The position numbers were made by a program, and so were the translations under genes. DNA of 38,229 bases, taken from assembly GCA_947588765.1 (NCBI GenBank), contig CANPZG010000009.1, forward strand, positions 1 to 38,229, read 5' to 3'. Under the pieces are notes generated by a model. The model worked only from the letters and a program-made list of their open reading frames with translations. It was not told the DNA's origin and did no database searches. Of the stretch, positions 7,145 through 36,986 are shown piece by piece. Numbering within the stretch: the first letter of the stretch is position 1; each line of letters begins with the position of its first letter. Source of the stretch: an uncultured Bacilli bacterium (lineage in GTDB: Bacteria > Bacillota_I > Bacilli_A > RF39 > UBA660).

Positions 7145-8962
7145 TTAATCAAAAATACTTTGAACTAATTTAACGTATTCATTTATGACATTACTTGTTT
7201 TGCTAGTATATATTTCATTTTTCGCTAAAGTTATATTGTCTGTTATTATATTATCAACATTAATATTTATCATTTTGTTTATGTTTTCGCTAGTATTAAC
7301 TGTCCAAGCATATATTTCTTTACCTGCCCCATGAATTTGATTAACTAAAGTTTTATTTATACTTGAAGCTTCAATACTAAAACTATCAGCATATTCTAAA
7401 TCAATTATATTGCCATATGCCAAACTCATAACATACACGGTTTTAATTGAATCATCGTATTTTTTAACATTTTCTAAGACTTCATAAACTTGAGAAGTAA
7501 CCACACAATTATTCTTAAAATTATATTCATTAATTAAATCAATAACTCCCTTTTCAAAATCTATTTCATGTCCCGTTGGTTTTAATTCAATATTTAATTT
7601 TAGATTATTCTTTTTCGCATATTCTAGAACATCTCTAAGTAAAGGTATTCTTTCATCACTAAAGGATTTATCAAAGAAACTTCCAGCATCTAAATCTTTT
7701 ATTTCATCATAGGTTGCTTCCCAAGTATTTTTATTTACTCCCGTGGTTCTTTTTAAATTAGTATCATGTAAGACTACTAATTGTTGATCCAAAGTTTGTT
7801 GTACATCCAATTCCGCCCAATCAGCCCCATATTCTTTTGCTCCTACAAAAGCACTCATCGTATTTTCAGGATAATCAACTGATGCTCCTCGATGAGCTGT
7901 AACCTCAATTGTTCTAACATATTCAATATTTAAATTTAATTTATTATTTAAAACTAAATAAGTGAATATTGTGCCACTACCAAGAATTAAAACAATAATG
8001 GCATACTTTAATATGTTCATTTTTCTTTTTACTTTTACTTCTTCTTTTATTACTAAATTAACATGTTTAACTTTTTCTTTTCTTTGTTCTTTATGTCGAA
8101 AAAACAATATACTAATAATAGCATAACTAATAGGTGTTGCTAAAAGTAACATAATTATGAAAGATATCGCAATAAATAACCAAATAATTGTAATCATAAC
8201 ATTACCTAAAATATTAGTTTGACCAAACATTTTATAAAGAGCAACAATCAAAAAAACTCCTAGACCTATAAATAACATATATAAAAAGGCCAATAACATT
8301 TGGGTAATAATTATTCTTAAATAATCTTTTAATTTATTTTTCTTACTTAAATTACTACTCTTAGCACAGGATTCTTTAAAATTTAAATCTTCTAAAACAA
8401 AATAATGAAAAACATATAGCCATCTAAATAAAGTAATCGTTAAGATAATAATTAAAATAATATATAAAGCAAAATATAAACTATTTTTAACAATAAAATC
8501 CATGATAAATTCTGGTACGGCAATTGTCGAAATAAAACTAGAGGATACTCCAATATTTAAAAATGGAATCAAGAATATTACTAAAAATGGTAATAAAATA
8601 TTTTGCCATTTAAAGACTCTTAAGGATTTTTTTAATGCTAAAACAAAAGCATCTTTAATTTTAATTTTTTTCTTTTGATAAGAACTATCTAAAATAATTA
8701 TAATTGTACTAATATCTATAAAAGTATAAAAGGTCATAAAGATTAGCAAAAATAATAAACATATTATAGTTAATGGTTGCATTAAAAAAGGAATTATATT
8801 TTCAAATGTTAAATAATTATAATTACTTATATCCATAGTTAGATGAAACATTCCTAAAAATAAAGGAACAAATATTATTGTCGTAATAAGTTTATAAATT
8901 GTCTCAAATCCTAACAAAGTTTTTAAATTAAAACTCAATAAATTTTTAATAGATGACTTCAT
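7145..8962 (-). CDS. Membrane-anchored glycerophosphodiester phosphodiesterase
   Basis: The enzyme releases glycerol 3-phosphate from glycerophosphodiesters or from glycerophosphate polymers. Residues 1-340 carry about eight membrane segments, as in the GPDPase_memb family. Residues 352-590 are an extracellular-type GDPD domain: His357-Arg358 in AHRGAS, Glu366-Asn367, Glu384 and Asp386 in AELDVQ, and His399 in VLHDTN. All expected catalytic residues are visible. GTGAGGT precedes the ATG by 7 bases. At 605 residues it is full length. Envelope lipid or lipoteichoic acid turnover is likely. Confidence 0.95.
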   Translation of the reverse strand: MKSSIKNLLSFNLKTLLGFETIYKLITTIIFVPLFLGMFHLTMDISNYNYLTFENIIPFLMQPLTIICLLFLLIFMTFYTFIDISTIIIILDSSYQKKKIKIKDAFVLALKKSLRVFKWQNILLPFLVIFLIPFLNIGVSSSFISTIAVPEFIMDFIVKNSLYFALYIILIIILTITLFRWLYVFHYFVLEDLNFKESCAKSSNLSKKNKLKDYLRIIITQMLLAFLYMLFIGLGVFLIVALYKMFGQTNILGNVMITIIWLFIAISFIIMLLLATPISYAIISILFFRHKEQRKEKVKHVNLVIKEEVKVKRKMNILKYAIIVLILGSGTIFTYLVLNNKLNLNIEYVRTIEVTAHRGASVDYPENTMSAFVGAKEYGADWAELDVQQTLDQQLVVLHDTNLKRTTGVNKNTWEATYDEIKDLDAGSFFDKSFSDERIPLLRDVLEYAKKNNLKLNIELKPTGHEIDFEKGVIDLINEYNFKNNCVVTSQVYEVLENVKKYDDSIKTVYVMSLAYGNIIDLEYADSFSIEASSINKTLVNQIHGAGKEIYAWTVNTSENINKMININVDNIITDNITLAKNEIYTSKTSNVINEYVKLVQSIFD

Positions 8963-9025
8963 AAAACTACCTCACTTTTATAACAATAATATCATAACAT
9001 AAAATAATAAATTGGTTAAATAAAA

Positions 9026-9051
9026 ATGATGACCTTTAATAAAGTCACCAT
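9026..9051 (-). terminator. Terminator after lipoprotein copy 1
   Basis: On the minus strand ATGGTGACTTT pairs with AAAGGTCATCAT around a four-base loop and is followed by TTTTTATTT. It lies 10 bases after the stop of the 9061-9762 gene. Confidence 0.8.
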
Positions 9052-9060
9052 TAGATTTAA

Positions 9061-9762
9061 TTATTTTTCTAAAGCATCAGTCGTTGTTACTTTTTCACAT
9101 GTTTTACTTTCAGTATTATAAGTAAAGCCTTCGGTTTTACATGTATTTGTTATTTCTTTAGTTTCAGTTATAGTACATTTTGAACCGGATAACTTTCCTT
9201 CACTACAAGTATATGTAGTTTTAACTTTACTTGTTTTATAGCATTTACCATCTATTTCTTTCATACCATTTTCACAACCTAATTCATAAATAGGTTCAAC
9301 ATAATCTTCATAACAATCTGTACCATCAGCATTTTGACAAATTTGAACAATGCATTTATGATCTTCAGCTCGAACTGAACGATAATAATAATTACGTTCT
9401 GGATCATAATCAAATTTTTCTTGAATACCACCACGACAAGCAGGAACCAATTCACGATCTACACCGTTTTTGCTAACACAACTATCATTTTTTAGTTCAT
9501 AACCATCACTACAGCTTTTTGTAGCTTGAGCTTTAATAGAACTTGTTTTAACACATTTACCATCATTTAATTTATAATCTTTATCACAAGACTCTATCGC
9601 ATCTTCCGTAGCAATTATTTCACATACTGTACCATTTAAGTTTCCATCTTCACAATAGTATTCTTTCTTAGATTCTTTATTTTCACTTGCTTCTTTAGTT
9701 CCACACCCAGAAAGTGTTAAAACTAACAAACAACAAGTCAAAACATTTACTACTTTTTTCAT
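9061..9762 (-). CDS. Cys-rich lipoprotein, array copy 1
   Basis: The 233 residues start with a lipoprotein signal and lipobox LSGC at Cys20. Short Cys-rich units of the form YxC-x2-G-x-L-x3-x-C repeat through the mature part. The N-terminal 80 residues and the last 60 residues are almost identical to the other two array members, while the centre (about residues 90-170) is different. A surface ligand or adhesion role is possible but unproven. It has its own promoter (9786-9815) with TTGACA and TATAAT, the ribosome site AAGGAG, and a terminator. Confidence 0.85.
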   Translation of the reverse strand: MKKVVNVLTCCLLVLTLSGCGTKEASENKESKKEYYCEDGNLNGTVCEIIATEDAIESCDKDYKLNDGKCVKTSSIKAQATKSCSDGYELKNDSCVSKNGVDRELVPACRGGIQEKFDYDPERNYYYRSVRAEDHKCIVQICQNADGTDCYEDYVEPIYELGCENGMKEIDGKCYKTSKVKTTYTCSEGKLSGSKCTITETKEITNTCKTEGFTYNTESKTCEKVTTTDALEK

Positions 9763-9785: not shown

Positions 9786-9815
9786 ATTATATTTTAAATT
9801 ATTAGAAAATGTCAA
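9786..9815 (-). promoter_or_regulatory. Promoter of lipoprotein copy 1
   Basis: TTGACA (9815-9810) and TATAAT (9791-9786) are separated by 18 bases. It is about 25 bases upstream of the start codon. The matching region of copy 2 keeps the TATAAT but not the TTGACA. Confidence 0.75.
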
Positions 9816-9833: not shown

Positions 9834-9854
9834 GATTACCTTTTTTGGGTAATC
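9834..9854 (-). terminator. Terminator after lipoprotein copy 2
   Basis: Perfect GATTACC/GGTAATC arms, loop of seven bases, followed by TTTTTT on the minus strand. It lies just after the stop at 9861, so copies 1 and 2 need not share a transcript. Confidence 0.85.
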
Positions 9855-9860
9855 AATTTA

Positions 9861-10553
9861 TTATTTTTTTAAAGCTTCAGTTGTTGTTACTTTTTCGCAT
9901 TGTTTACTTTCAGCATTATAAGTAAATCCATCAGTTTTACATGTATTTGTTACTTCTTTACTATCAGTTATAGTACATTTTGAACCTGATAATTTACCTT
10001 CACTACAAGTATATGTTGTTTTAACTTTACTTGTTTTATAGCATTTACCATCTATTTCCTTAGTTCCGCTTGGACAAGCTGTAACCGTTGTAGGATCATA
10101 TTCATCTATTGCACCATCTATGCATTCACCATCTCGATATTTAGCACATGCAGATGTTGAACATTTACCTTCTTCATTCAAACTGCCTTTTGAAAAACCT
10201 TCATCGGCTAAATCTTTAGGTAATACACATTCTTTAGTTGTTACCTTATCATAAGTTTTATCACTAACACAAGTACTGCCATTTAAAGTATATCCATCGC
10301 TACATGATTTAGTTGCTTTAGCATCTTTAGTTGTTGTTTTAACACATTTTCCATCAGTTAATTTGTAGTCCTTATCACAAGTTTCTACGGCATCTTCCGT
10401 AGCAATAATTTCACATACTGTCCCGTTTAAATTTCCTTCTTCGCAATAATATTCTTTTCCATTTTCTTTGTTATCACTTGCTTCTTTAGTTCCACAACCA
10501 GCTAGTGACAATACTAACATACAACAAACCAAAATATTTAACACTTTTTTCAT
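9861..10553 (-). CDS. Cys-rich lipoprotein, array copy 2
   Basis: The 230-residue paralogue has the same signal peptide and lipobox (LAGC, Cys20). It has the same N-terminal block ending near residue 80, and the same C-terminal block of TCSEGKLSGSKCTI and related units. Its centre, from about KECVLPKDLADEGF to EYDPTTVTAC, differs from copy 1 and partly matches copy 3. Its upstream region resembles copy 1 in TATAAT and AAGGAGTGAG but lacks a good -35 box, so it may depend on read-through from copy 3. Confidence 0.85.
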   Translation of the reverse strand: MKKVLNILVCCMLVLSLAGCGTKEASDNKENGKEYYCEEGNLNGTVCEIIATEDAVETCDKDYKLTDGKCVKTTTKDAKATKSCSDGYTLNGSTCVSDKTYDKVTTKECVLPKDLADEGFSKGSLNEEGKCSTSACAKYRDGECIDGAIDEYDPTTVTACPSGTKEIDGKCYKTSKVKTTYTCSEGKLSGSKCTITDSKEVTNTCKTDGFTYNAESKQCEKVTTTEALKK

Positions 10554-11326: not shown

Positions 11327-11350
11327 TTCAAAACACCTCCTTTTGCCCTA

Positions 11351-11379
11351 ATTATATATATATATATATATATTGTCAA
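11351..11379 (-). promoter_or_regulatory. Consensus promoter with pure TA-repeat spacer
   Basis: TTGACA (11379-11374) and TATAAT (11356-11351) are both perfect and exactly 17 bases apart. The whole spacer alternates T and A, and the tract extends into the -10 box (about ten TA units, 11353-11373). Loss or gain of one unit would shift spacing to 15 or 19 bases and should change promoter strength greatly. Confidence 0.85.
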
Positions 11380-11561: not shown

Positions 11562-12071
11562 TTATTTTTTCTTTCTTGTTAAACATATTCCTATAACAGA
11601 ACCGATAAATATTATTGGAGCAATTCTAACAAAAAGCCATACAAAACTATGAACTCCAACACCCAATACTGCTAATTCTGGATCATTATAATCCCATTCC
11701 ATATAAGTATTTCCTAGTGTTACCAAAAATATAAAAATAACTATTATAATTACACATATAGCTATAAATACTAGATGCCAAATTTTTCTTTTTGTTTCTT
11801 GTTTTTGGGTTAATTGTAAATTTATTATTTCTAATTTTTCAGCTATTTCTTTTAATGAATCTTCTTTTTGTTCCGTAATATTTTCTCCAAGTAAGGTACT
11901 AACTGATGTATCTAAAGCATTAGCTAATGAAACTAATAATTCCGAATCAGGAACCGATAATCCTTGTTCCCATTTGGAAATTGTTTGTCTAACTACATTT
12001 AATTTTATAGCCAATTCTTCTTGTGAAAGTCCTTTGGCTTTTCTAATAGTCTTAATATTATCTTTTAACAT
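11562..12071 (-). CDS. XRE-family regulator with C-terminal membrane segments
   Basis: Residues 1-65 are a Cro/CI-type helix-turn-helix with LSQEELAIKLNVVRQTISKWEQG. After a charged linker come two membrane segments (about residues 100-120 and 143-163). Such membrane-tethered XRE proteins probably respond to an envelope signal. The ATG at 12071 follows AGGAGG by 9 bases; the longer frame from 12092 lacks a site. The promoter TTGAAG-17-TATAAT is overlapped by the palindrome TTGCTTCAAGCAA, suggesting autoregulation. It borders the toxin-like units. Confidence 0.9.
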   Translation of the reverse strand: MLKDNIKTIRKAKGLSQEELAIKLNVVRQTISKWEQGLSVPDSELLVSLANALDTSVSTLLGENITEQKEDSLKEIAEKLEIINLQLTQKQETKRKIWHLVFIAICVIIIVIFIFLVTLGNTYMEWDYNDPELAVLGVGVHSFVWLFVRIAPIIFIGSVIGICLTRKKK

Positions 12072-12094
12072 AATAATTTCCTCCTTCACCAAGG

Positions 12095-35060: not shown

Positions 35061-36986
35061 TTAATATATATTTTTACATTTTGAGCATTTAGAATTACGA
35101 CGATTTCTATTACTAATTATTGCTTCCCATTCATGGCCATTTTTACATATCCACCATACTTTTTTGTTGCTATTTGCTGTTACCTTTTGAGGGGTTAAAT
35201 CGCCATTCTTTTTATAATTCCATTCTTTGGCTAATTCAGGATTAATTGTAGCCAAATCATTATAGCCAATTAAAACTTTTTTGTTTGAGCAATAAGGACA
35301 ATTTGTTCCATTATTTCTATCAGCAATACATGCCTGCCATTCATGACCATTTTTACATATCCACCATACTTTTTTATTACTATTTGCAGTTACTTTTTGA
35401 GGTGTTAAATTGCCATTCTTTTTAAAATTCCATTCTTTGGCTAATTTAGTATTAATAGTTGCTAAATCATTATAACCTATTAAAATTTTTTTGTTTGAGC
35501 AATAAGGACAATTTCTTCCTTTGTTTCTATTATCAATTGTTGCTTGCCATTCGTGCCCATTTTTGCAAAGCCACCATACTTTTCTATTGCTATTTCCATA
35601 GACTTTTTGTGGTGTTAAATCGCCATTCTTTTTATAATTCCATTCTTTAGCCAATTTTGGATTTATTGTTGCTAAATCATCAATTCCTATATGTGGTGTT
35701 GAAAGTTTAATTGAATTTCGTTTCCTATTACACATAGGGCACCCATAACCATTACATCTAACATAAATTTTTGTTTGCCATTCGTAACCGCATTTAGAAC
35801 ATATCCACCATATTTTTGTATGATCTCCCTTTGAAAAATTTTCCGGTCTTAATTTTCCGTTTTTAGTTGGATGCCATTCACATATTAAGTCAGGATTAGT
35901 TTCTACTATCGATGAGAATTTTTGATATTGTTCGAAATATTGGTATATTTTTAAATAATCGCGATTAACATCTATGTCATAAAAATTAATATTCAATTTT
36001 TCAAATAGTAATTTTATAATTTTATTCATATATGAAAAATCAGATGTTAAATTATTAATTACTAAATCAATAGATGTGTCATTCAAAGTACCGATTAAAG
36101 GTTCTCTAATTCTATATAATATTATTCCTAAATTTTGACACAATTTATTTTTTTCAATATCTTTATCTCGATTTTTATGCCACCGCTGACCATCATACTC
36201 TATTGCAATATTTTTTGAAGGTATAAATATGTCTAATTCCCTTTTTCCTATTTTTTTGTTTTCTTCTATAGCAATAGAAGCCATTTTTAAATAAAATACA
36301 ATAATCTTTTCAGCAATTGATATTCGTTTTCTTTTATCACATTCTTTACAAAAATGTCCTTTAACCCTACTTGAAACTGCAGCTTGCCATTCATGATTAT
36401 TTTTACATTTCCACCAATATTTTTTTGAAGTACCACAAATTATTTCACTTGGTTTTAAAGGATAATTTTTTTCATAATTCCATTCTTTTGCAATTTCCGG
36501 ATATCTCGTTTCTAAATCATTAAATCCAACATTTAGTACTCTATTTGCACACGACGGACAACCTGTAGGATTAGCTTTGGTTCTATTAATTAATGGGGTT
36601 TTCCATTTCCAATTGCATTTAGAACAAATCCAATTTATTGGTATATTTGATTTAACGGCTATTTCATTAGGCTTTTTTTCATTTAGATTAAAATCCCACT
36701 CTTTTAATAAATTTTGAAAATTATTATTTTTACACCATGTTTCAAAATCATTATAACCTTTTAAAACTTTTTGTCCCGCACAATAAGGACATCTTGTGCC
36801 ATAAACAAATTGTTTTATTGAAGATTCATAAGAATTATGACATTTTTCACATATCCACCAAACTTTTTGGTGTGATCCATAAGTTATCTCATTCGGTTGA
36901 ATAGTATTTTTTTCATAATTCCAATATTTTAATAATTCTTTATGAGTAGAAGCAAAGTCATTAATTTCTTTTTCAACTTTTAACAT
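35061..36986 (-). CDS. Seven-zinc-finger protein with central Vsr-like endonuclease
   Basis: Three treble-clef zinc fingers (DUF4379-type) precede a PD-(D/E)XK/Vsr-like domain (about 222-310). Key residues there are Glu250/Asp252, Glu263 and Asp265, plus His270 in IAIEYDGQRWH. Four more fingers follow (365-641). Each finger has the C-x2-C ... C-x2-C pattern with KEWN and WWxCxxGHEW. The last three fingers repeat every 70 residues and are also near-identical in DNA. TAGGTG precedes the ATG. This architecture suggests a DNA-targeting nuclease, perhaps of mobile element origin or defence; substrate unknown. Confidence 0.88.
   Translation of the reverse strand: MLKVEKEINDFASTHKELLKYWNYEKNTIQPNEITYGSHQKVWWICEKCHNSYESSIKQFVYGTRCPYCAGQKVLKGYNDFETWCKNNNFQNLLKEWDFNLNEKKPNEIAVKSNIPINWICSKCNWKWKTPLINRTKANPTGCPSCANRVLNVGFNDLETRYPEIAKEWNYEKNYPLKPSEIICGTSKKYWWKCKNNHEWQAAVSSRVKGHFCKECDKRKRISIAEKIIVFYLKMASIAIEENKKIGKRELDIFIPSKNIAIEYDGQRWHKNRDKDIEKNKLCQNLGIILYRIREPLIGTLNDTSIDLVINNLTSDFSYMNKIIKLLFEKLNINFYDIDVNRDYLKIYQYFEQYQKFSSIVETNPDLICEWHPTKNGKLRPENFSKGDHTKIWWICSKCGYEWQTKIYVRCNGYGCPMCNRKRNSIKLSTPHIGIDDLATINPKLAKEWNYKKNGDLTPQKVYGNSNRKVWWLCKNGHEWQATIDNRNKGRNCPYCSNKKILIGYNDLATINTKLAKEWNFKKNGNLTPQKVTANSNKKVWWICKNGHEWQACIADRNNGTNCPYCSNKKVLIGYNDLATINPELAKEWNYKKNGDLTPQKVTANSNKKVWWICKNGHEWEAIISNRNRRNSKCSKCKNIY

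Follow-up and report, generated by a model that had tools for sequence, protein, structure and literature searches.

Lipoprotein array and its promoter

The window analysed here, which is the whole stretch of 38,229 nucleotides and has an A+T content of 75%, carries three tandem paralogous, cysteine-rich lipoprotein genes, the first of which is headed by a promoter with a TA-repeat spacer (Table 1). Read on the minus strand from 11379 to 11351, this promoter consists of TTGACA, a pure AT repeat of 17 bases and TATAAT, all of them exact, and the unbroken TA tract measures 21 nt (11353-11373). The TATAAT is followed on the minus strand by TAGGGCAAAAGGAGGTGTTTTGAA and then by the TTG start of the 238-aa lipoprotein, from which a leader of about 18 nt with a putative transcription start can be predicted. 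The initial annotation had described exact hexamers separated by 17 bases of alternating T and A, and this was found again on reading, on the minus strand, which had been left unstated. It had also named the first lipoprotein gene of the array, with its TTG start, as the controlled gene; the sequence agrees, an AGGAGG preceding this start.

Table 1. Features of the lipoprotein array and its surroundings in the window
Feature	Position	Strand	Basis
Terminator-like hairpin after gene 3	9025-9052		
Paralogous lipoprotein gene 3, 64% identical to gene 1	9061..9762	-	Sequence comparison
Gene 3 own non-TA promoter, TTGACA-18-TATAAT	9786..9815	-	Sequence read
Terminator-like hairpin 3' of gene 2	9834..9854	-	Hairpin search
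Paralogous lipoprotein gene 2, 75% identical to gene 1	9861..10553	-	Sequence comparison
Cys-rich lipoprotein gene 1, TTG start, lipobox LSGC, 238 aa	10610..11326	-	Sequence, model
Ribosome-binding site AGGAGG, 9 nt before TTG start	11336..11341	-	Sequence read
-10 hexamer TATAAT, first four bases part of the TA tract	11351..11356	-	Exact match
17-bp spacer, pure AT repeat ATATATATATATATATA	11357..11373	-	Sequence read
-35 hexamer TTGACA	11374..11379	-	Exact match
HTH_3 (Xre-type) protein gene, predicted membrane segments, upstream of the array	11562..12092	-	Domain match

This is the only zero-mismatch promoter match in the whole window. When the window was simulated 300 times with an order-3 Markov model, TA tracts of 16 nt or more never appeared and perfect promoters spaced at 17 bp appeared 0.03 times per simulation. 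A chance origin of the TA spacer is ruled out by these simulations together with the promoter position of the tracts.

The gap between genes 1 and 2 is 56 nt and no terminator was found in it. Because of this gap, the hairpin after gene 2 and the separate promoter of gene 3, the TA promoter most likely serves genes 1 and 2, which are probably co-transcribed from it. The product of gene 1 (P0001) carries a lipobox and is presumably exposed on the surface. It has no Pfam match, and its NCBIfam matches are weak and below cutoff. A structure model built on a three-sequence alignment is beta-rich (pLDDT 79.9, pTM 0.45) and gave no match in the PDB at E<=0.001. The HTH_3 protein encoded upstream of the array is a possible candidate for its regulator. 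Directly downstream of the array (7145-8962) lies a gene for a membrane-domain glycerophosphodiester phosphodiesterase (GPDPase_memb and GDPD).

TA-spacer promoters across the genome

Pattern searches of the genome to which the window belongs (hereafter the own genome) gave 25 TA-spacer promoters, placed mostly before genes for exported or membrane-anchored proteins. Their spacers measure 13 bp (two), 15 bp (18), 16 bp (one), 17 bp (three) and 19 bp (one), those of 17 bp being the window copy, C10:17650 and C41:9395. Fourteen of these promoters are of the type TTGNTA-TA-GTANAAT and eight of the type TTGACAGA-TA-ATGATATCA, the remaining three being a TTGATAGA relative on contig C14, a hybrid with the 16-bp spacer on C2 and the window copy itself. 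The tracts are pure in 8/8 promoters of the TTGACAGA-TA-ATGATATCA set and in 13/14 of the TTGNTA-TA-GTANAAT set; in the 15-bp copy at C42 the last repeat unit is imperfect. Moreover, (TA)9 occurs at four places in this genome of 1.27 Mb and on reading all four proved to be promoter spacers.

Perfect hexamers at 17 bp were found 19 times in the 1.27 Mb, against once for the reversed pattern. Perfect hexamers alone are therefore not special in this genome; the TA spacer is. Among the 42 perfect-hexamer pairs of the own genome with a non-TA spacer, 32 are spaced at 16-18 bp (17 bp in 18, 16 bp in nine and 18 bp in five) and none at 15 bp. The other ten fall at various spacings from 10 to 24 bp, about as often as expected by chance, the reversed control giving 15 matches over 15 spacings.

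Repeat-number differences among near-identical copies

Copies that are nearly identical outside the repeat can differ in its length. The promoters C7:27523 and C10:17650 are one TA unit apart with two substitutions in 76 flanking bases, and C10:2133 and C54:61 are identical in 48 core bases with tracts one unit apart. Across ten genomes, tract length differs in 15 of 41 close sibling pairs (three or fewer substitutions in 48 core bases), a count in which the pairs are non-independent and in which the even step between siblings is partly imposed, since the comparison admits only odd tract lengths. Close pairs with a tract difference were absent from G020 (0 of 3), G021 (0 of 2) and G025 (0 of 7), and no close sibling pairs were obtained from G014 and G036. 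Three reciprocal-best ortholog pairs are available between G020 and G024; one of them, with proteins 77% identical, has spacers of 15 and 17, and the other two are 15/15.

Whole-unit variation in otherwise equal promoters is thus present among paralogs and in one ortholog pair, but not at the window copy. In G000 and in the two sister species G020 and G024, which are the three species with a TA promoter at the homologous array, the TA spacer before its first gene measures 17, so no variation in tract length was seen among them and the window copy may be stable. In the remaining relatives read, the first gene of this array has a non-TA promoter. Viral contigs were also scanned for further copies of these promoters that could represent strain variants, and no strain copies were found, although a further scan gave six contigs. 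Phase variation through spacer length had been proposed for the window promoter. For the class the proposal is well supported, with siblings at 13, 15, 17 and 19 bp, some of them with near-identical flanks, but for the window promoter no variation was seen, the spacer being 17 in three species. The initial annotation had expected lengths of 15, 17 and 19 to be mixed among reads; such a mixture was found among paralogous promoters. Since this copy showed no variation, the claim of switching for the window promoter alone is weaker than that for the class, and we would only lean towards it.

TA tracts in the genus, the family and beyond

Tracts of (TA)9 are present in 8 of the 30 genomes of the genus and absent from 22, these genomes being draft assemblies, one per species, of a kind that breaks at TA repeats. 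Raw forward counts, overlaps included, are 6 in the own genome, 36 in G014, 1 in G015, 1 in G017, 34 in G020, 54 in G021, 44 in G024 and 6 in G025.

Spacers were measured in six genomes of the genus with TTG as the anchor, the automatic choice of hexamers beforehand having been wrong for some rows. The sample comprises all 16 tracts of G014, 23 of G024 (those listed, out of at least that number), 20 regions each from G020, G021 and G025 (of 24, 29 and 27 places, respectively), one extra place in G025 and ten rows from the own genome. The spacing could be measured in 102 of the 112 sampled tracts of 17 nt or more, and was 15 bp in 71, 17 bp in 20, 19 bp in two, 13 bp and 21 bp in one each and 16, 18, 20 or 22 bp in seven. 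This sample predates the recognition of the TTGATA class and counts only tracts of at least 17 nt, which is why the 13-bp copies of the own genome are missing from it. Its ten own-genome rows, compared with the 25 promoters counted later, are a biased sample because they were drawn largely from promoter patterns. Of the ten unmeasured tracts, four have GTGCGACC directly after them, two retain part of a promoter and four lack clear promoter features.

The tracts sampled outside the own genome, also 102 in number and including all ten unmeasured ones, were found by the tract alone, and 98 of them have promoter features. In 92 there is a -35-like triplet and, at measurable spacing, a -10-like end, six further tracts have a partial promoter or an interrupted one, and four are without clear features.

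At the level of the family, promoters of the form TTG-TA-TATAAT with a tract of the searched length were found in 18 of 386 sampled genomes, the reversed control giving three matches in total. Other genera of the family have arrays with TA spacers of 11-21 bp placed before unrelated gene families. In G051 five TA promoters with spacers of 15, 17, 17, 21 and 17 each precede a pair of 240-aa proteins, lipoproteins follow TA spacers of 19, 11, 15 and 19 in G241 and of 21 and 15 in G190, and in G036 spacers of 13-19 stand before exported proteins and a pseudopilin-like pair. The locus in G051 (L116, G051:C9:5000-16000) contains ten tandem genes for proteins of about 240 aa in alternating pairs, with one TA promoter per pair and spacers of 15-21; these proteins have a weak match to a SipW-type leader just below cutoff. 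The two pseudopilin-like genes of G036 (L119, L121; GFTLMELIAV) have TA-spacer promoters of 17 and 13 bp.

A broader survey of 113 stretches of other genomes gave at least 123 TTGACA-TA-TATAAT promoters with spacers of 13-21, of which 15 is the commonest among the matches listed; among these, 65 of 105 ORFs have hydrophobic N-termini. We give this survey little weight because it includes family members counted elsewhere and because its pattern requires tracts of a minimum length and so biases the distribution of lengths. Promoters of this form also occur in cultured Firmicutes (Dolosicoccus, Streptococcus and Anaerococcus; L139, L141, L149, L162, L177, L197 and L128), some of them before LPxTG or lipoprotein genes.

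Genes behind the TA promoters

In the six genomes, 89 genes behind TA promoters are 80 aa or longer, and 87 of them encode a strongly hydrophobic N-terminus, as called by a simple hydropathy rule on the longest ORF. Behind ordinary perfect promoters, a control taken from the own genome only, this is the case for 2 of 17, and both belong to the same surface family. The lipobox of P0001 and these N-termini point to surface products, as in the hif and Vmm systems discussed below, and these products would be exposed on the cell.

Many of the genes with TA promoters are members of a single family, whose proteins have a GATYAFF-like leader and a VRPxFYL-like C-terminus. The members scanned gave no Pfam or NCBIfam match, and among the surface genes as a whole the one match above cutoff was Flg_new_2 (an InlB-type repeat) in a single gene. 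A profile made from ten own members gave 62 matches in the own genome, split matches of one gene included, and it matched in every one of the 30 genomes of the genus, so the surface family is wider than the TA promoters. Moreover, the family can do without the switch, because the 22 genomes without any (TA)9 have the family as well.

The upstream regions of 30 own family loci were read, giving 12 with TA promoters close by, 10 with non-TA promoters and eight left unclassed owing to a contig edge, a hybrid 16-bp promoter, a damaged -35, a far-upstream promoter with an intron remnant or a start that was not found. Nine of the ten non-TA members (L315, L316, L320-L322, L330, L332, L333 and L337) are accompanied by a short gene in divergent orientation that matches a helix-turn-helix family of Pfam, eight of these matches being above the curated cutoff; they would each have a private Xre-type regulator. 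The corresponding number for the TA members is 0 of 12, two of which have another divergent ORF with no Pfam match. The family seems to have two alternative modes of control, a TA spacer or a private Xre-type regulator, a split that was unpredicted and comes from one genome. Palindromes surround the promoter at some of the loci with private regulators (C48, C5).

A putative switch and the alternatives

Promoters of the sigma-70 type work best with spacers of 17+-1 bp, and slippage in dinucleotide tracts proceeds by whole units. Replication of the TA tract would add or remove such units and thereby move the -35 and -10 hexamers by 2 bp relative to each other. At 17 bp the RNA polymerase with the housekeeping sigma factor would fit and the gene would be on, and spacers of 13, 15, 19 or 21 bp would allow weak initiation or none. 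Having perfect hexamers and a 17-bp spacer, the window copy is predicted to be on and to drive lipoprotein genes 1 and 2. As most copies stand at 15 and few at 17, any one cell would display a small part of its surface proteins, drawn at random, and the benefit could be escape from immunity or from phage. What the sequences show directly is the tracts with their lengths, their place within promoters and the genes that follow; the way in which the lengths mutate, the dependence of transcription on length and this benefit are all presumed. The same applies to 15 bp as the off state in this lineage, although, given the mode at 15, such a spacer could work there. On the sequence evidence, we consider it likely that the roughly 25 TA-spacer promoters of the own genome are slipped-strand contingency switches for surface proteins. 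The wider reading is somewhat less secure but still favoured: genome-wide antigenic variation in a genus of uncultured gut Bacilli, in which TA-spacer promoters would stand at tens of surface genes, most at an inactive 15 and a changing few at 17, with the family alternatively under private Xre-type regulators, the choice between random switching and dedicated regulation being made gene by gene.

The TA spacer might instead be a structural device, whose ease of melting and twist would render the promoter sensitive to supercoiling, temperature or a TA-binding regulator, the length differences being drift and 15 bp a working spacing. The predominance of 15 bp in both the six genomes (71/102) and the own genome (18/25) would suit such a device, as would the good conservation of the species-specific flanks. 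However, 15 bp is avoided by the ordinary promoters of the genome (0/42), the arrays of other genera have no mode at 15, and the tracts remain pure, which is unlike the expectation under drift, so that we regard this explanation as unlikely, though worth keeping in mind. It is quite improbable that the tracts are neutral microsatellites copied along with duplicating surface genes. Siblings do share their flanks and signal-peptide regions, which means that the promoter travels with the gene, and the window is rich in A+T, but chance predicts no long TA tract, only 4 of the 102 tracts outside the own genome are without promoter features, and unrelated families (lipoproteins, a pseudopilin-like pair, alternating 240-aa proteins) stand behind TA promoters in other genera. 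The most doubtful explanation is that the repeated promoters provide homology mainly for recombination, through gene conversion or the shuffling of cassettes, and that their differing lengths are a by-product. Promoter and signal-peptide segments are common to many loci and contigs often end there, but the upstream flanks and the adjoining housekeeping genes vary from locus to locus, every gene has a promoter of its own, and no expression site with silent cassettes was seen.

If contingency switching by spacer length is the true explanation, strain-level surface diversity would be set by TA counts and could be read from long-read metagenomes. Repeat-driven promoter switching is known mainly from few loci in pathogens. 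In these uncultured gut bacteria the sequences indicate tens of switches of the same design per genome, and comparable arrangements occur in other genera of the family. The natural series of spacers of 13, 15, 17, 19 and 21 bp with similar flanks is suited to tests of spacer length against promoter output. In addition, the two wirings of one family, by TA switch or by private regulator, make random and sensed regulation open to testing against each other.

Comparison with known systems

Reviews describe Vmm of Mycoplasma mycoides subsp. mycoides SC as a surface protein whose transcription is reversibly on or off, depending on insertions or deletions of dinucleotides in the promoter spacer (PMC2628566, PMC10502178; original in Persson et al. 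2002). Vmm and the TA class have in common a surface-protein gene and spacer-length changes by dinucleotides, but Vmm is one gene in a wall-less pathogen for which ON and OFF clones were sequenced, and the TA class comprises tens of loci in several families known by sequence. The initial annotation had drawn its comparison from Haemophilus hif, and the comparison is sound in kind: the TA repeat of the hifA/hifB fimbrial promoter of Haemophilus influenzae alters the -10/-35 spacing (PMC3899988). The short tandem repeat between -35 and -10 that characterises hif and Vmm is present in exact form in the window. Like the TA class, hif has a TA repeat that sets the spacing for surface-structure genes; unlike it, hif is one bidirectional promoter in a Gram-negative bacterium and not many promoters of single direction. 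By this comparison Vmm is the nearer precedent.

The vlhA genes of Mycoplasma gallisepticum resemble the TA class in being a large surface family with a repeat promoter per gene, most of them at a common short number and few at the active one; the active number of GAA repeats is 12 and the commonest 8 (PMC6258824), much as 15 is the commonest spacer in the TA class. However, the GAA repeats precede the transcription start by about 40 nt, outside the -35/-10 spacer, and there is no conserved sigma-70 sequence (PMC6258824). The TA class does not share this arrangement, its repeat being TA and lying inside the spacer. Repeat length in the promoter region also switches surface proteins at vlp (Mycoplasma hyorhinis) and porA (Neisseria meningitidis), as is proposed for the TA class, but these repeats are homopolymer tracts (PMC10502178, PMC3899988). 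A search of the open-access literature found no description of TA-spacer promoters in gut Bacilli, which is weak evidence of absence.

Other observations

Just behind a TA promoter of the own genome (L111:287-360) there is a match to a group II intron (Rfam RF00029). The GTGCGACC noted above directly after TA tracts belongs to L069, L078, L081 and L276 (G014, G021), and we take it to be a typical group II intron start. Rfam did not confirm a group II intron at these four places. Introns may target TA promoters repeatedly.

Elsewhere in the window (35127-35680) a 210-bp tandem repeat of 2.6 copies lies within an ORF of 641 aa (35061-36986), which possibly encodes a length-variable protein.
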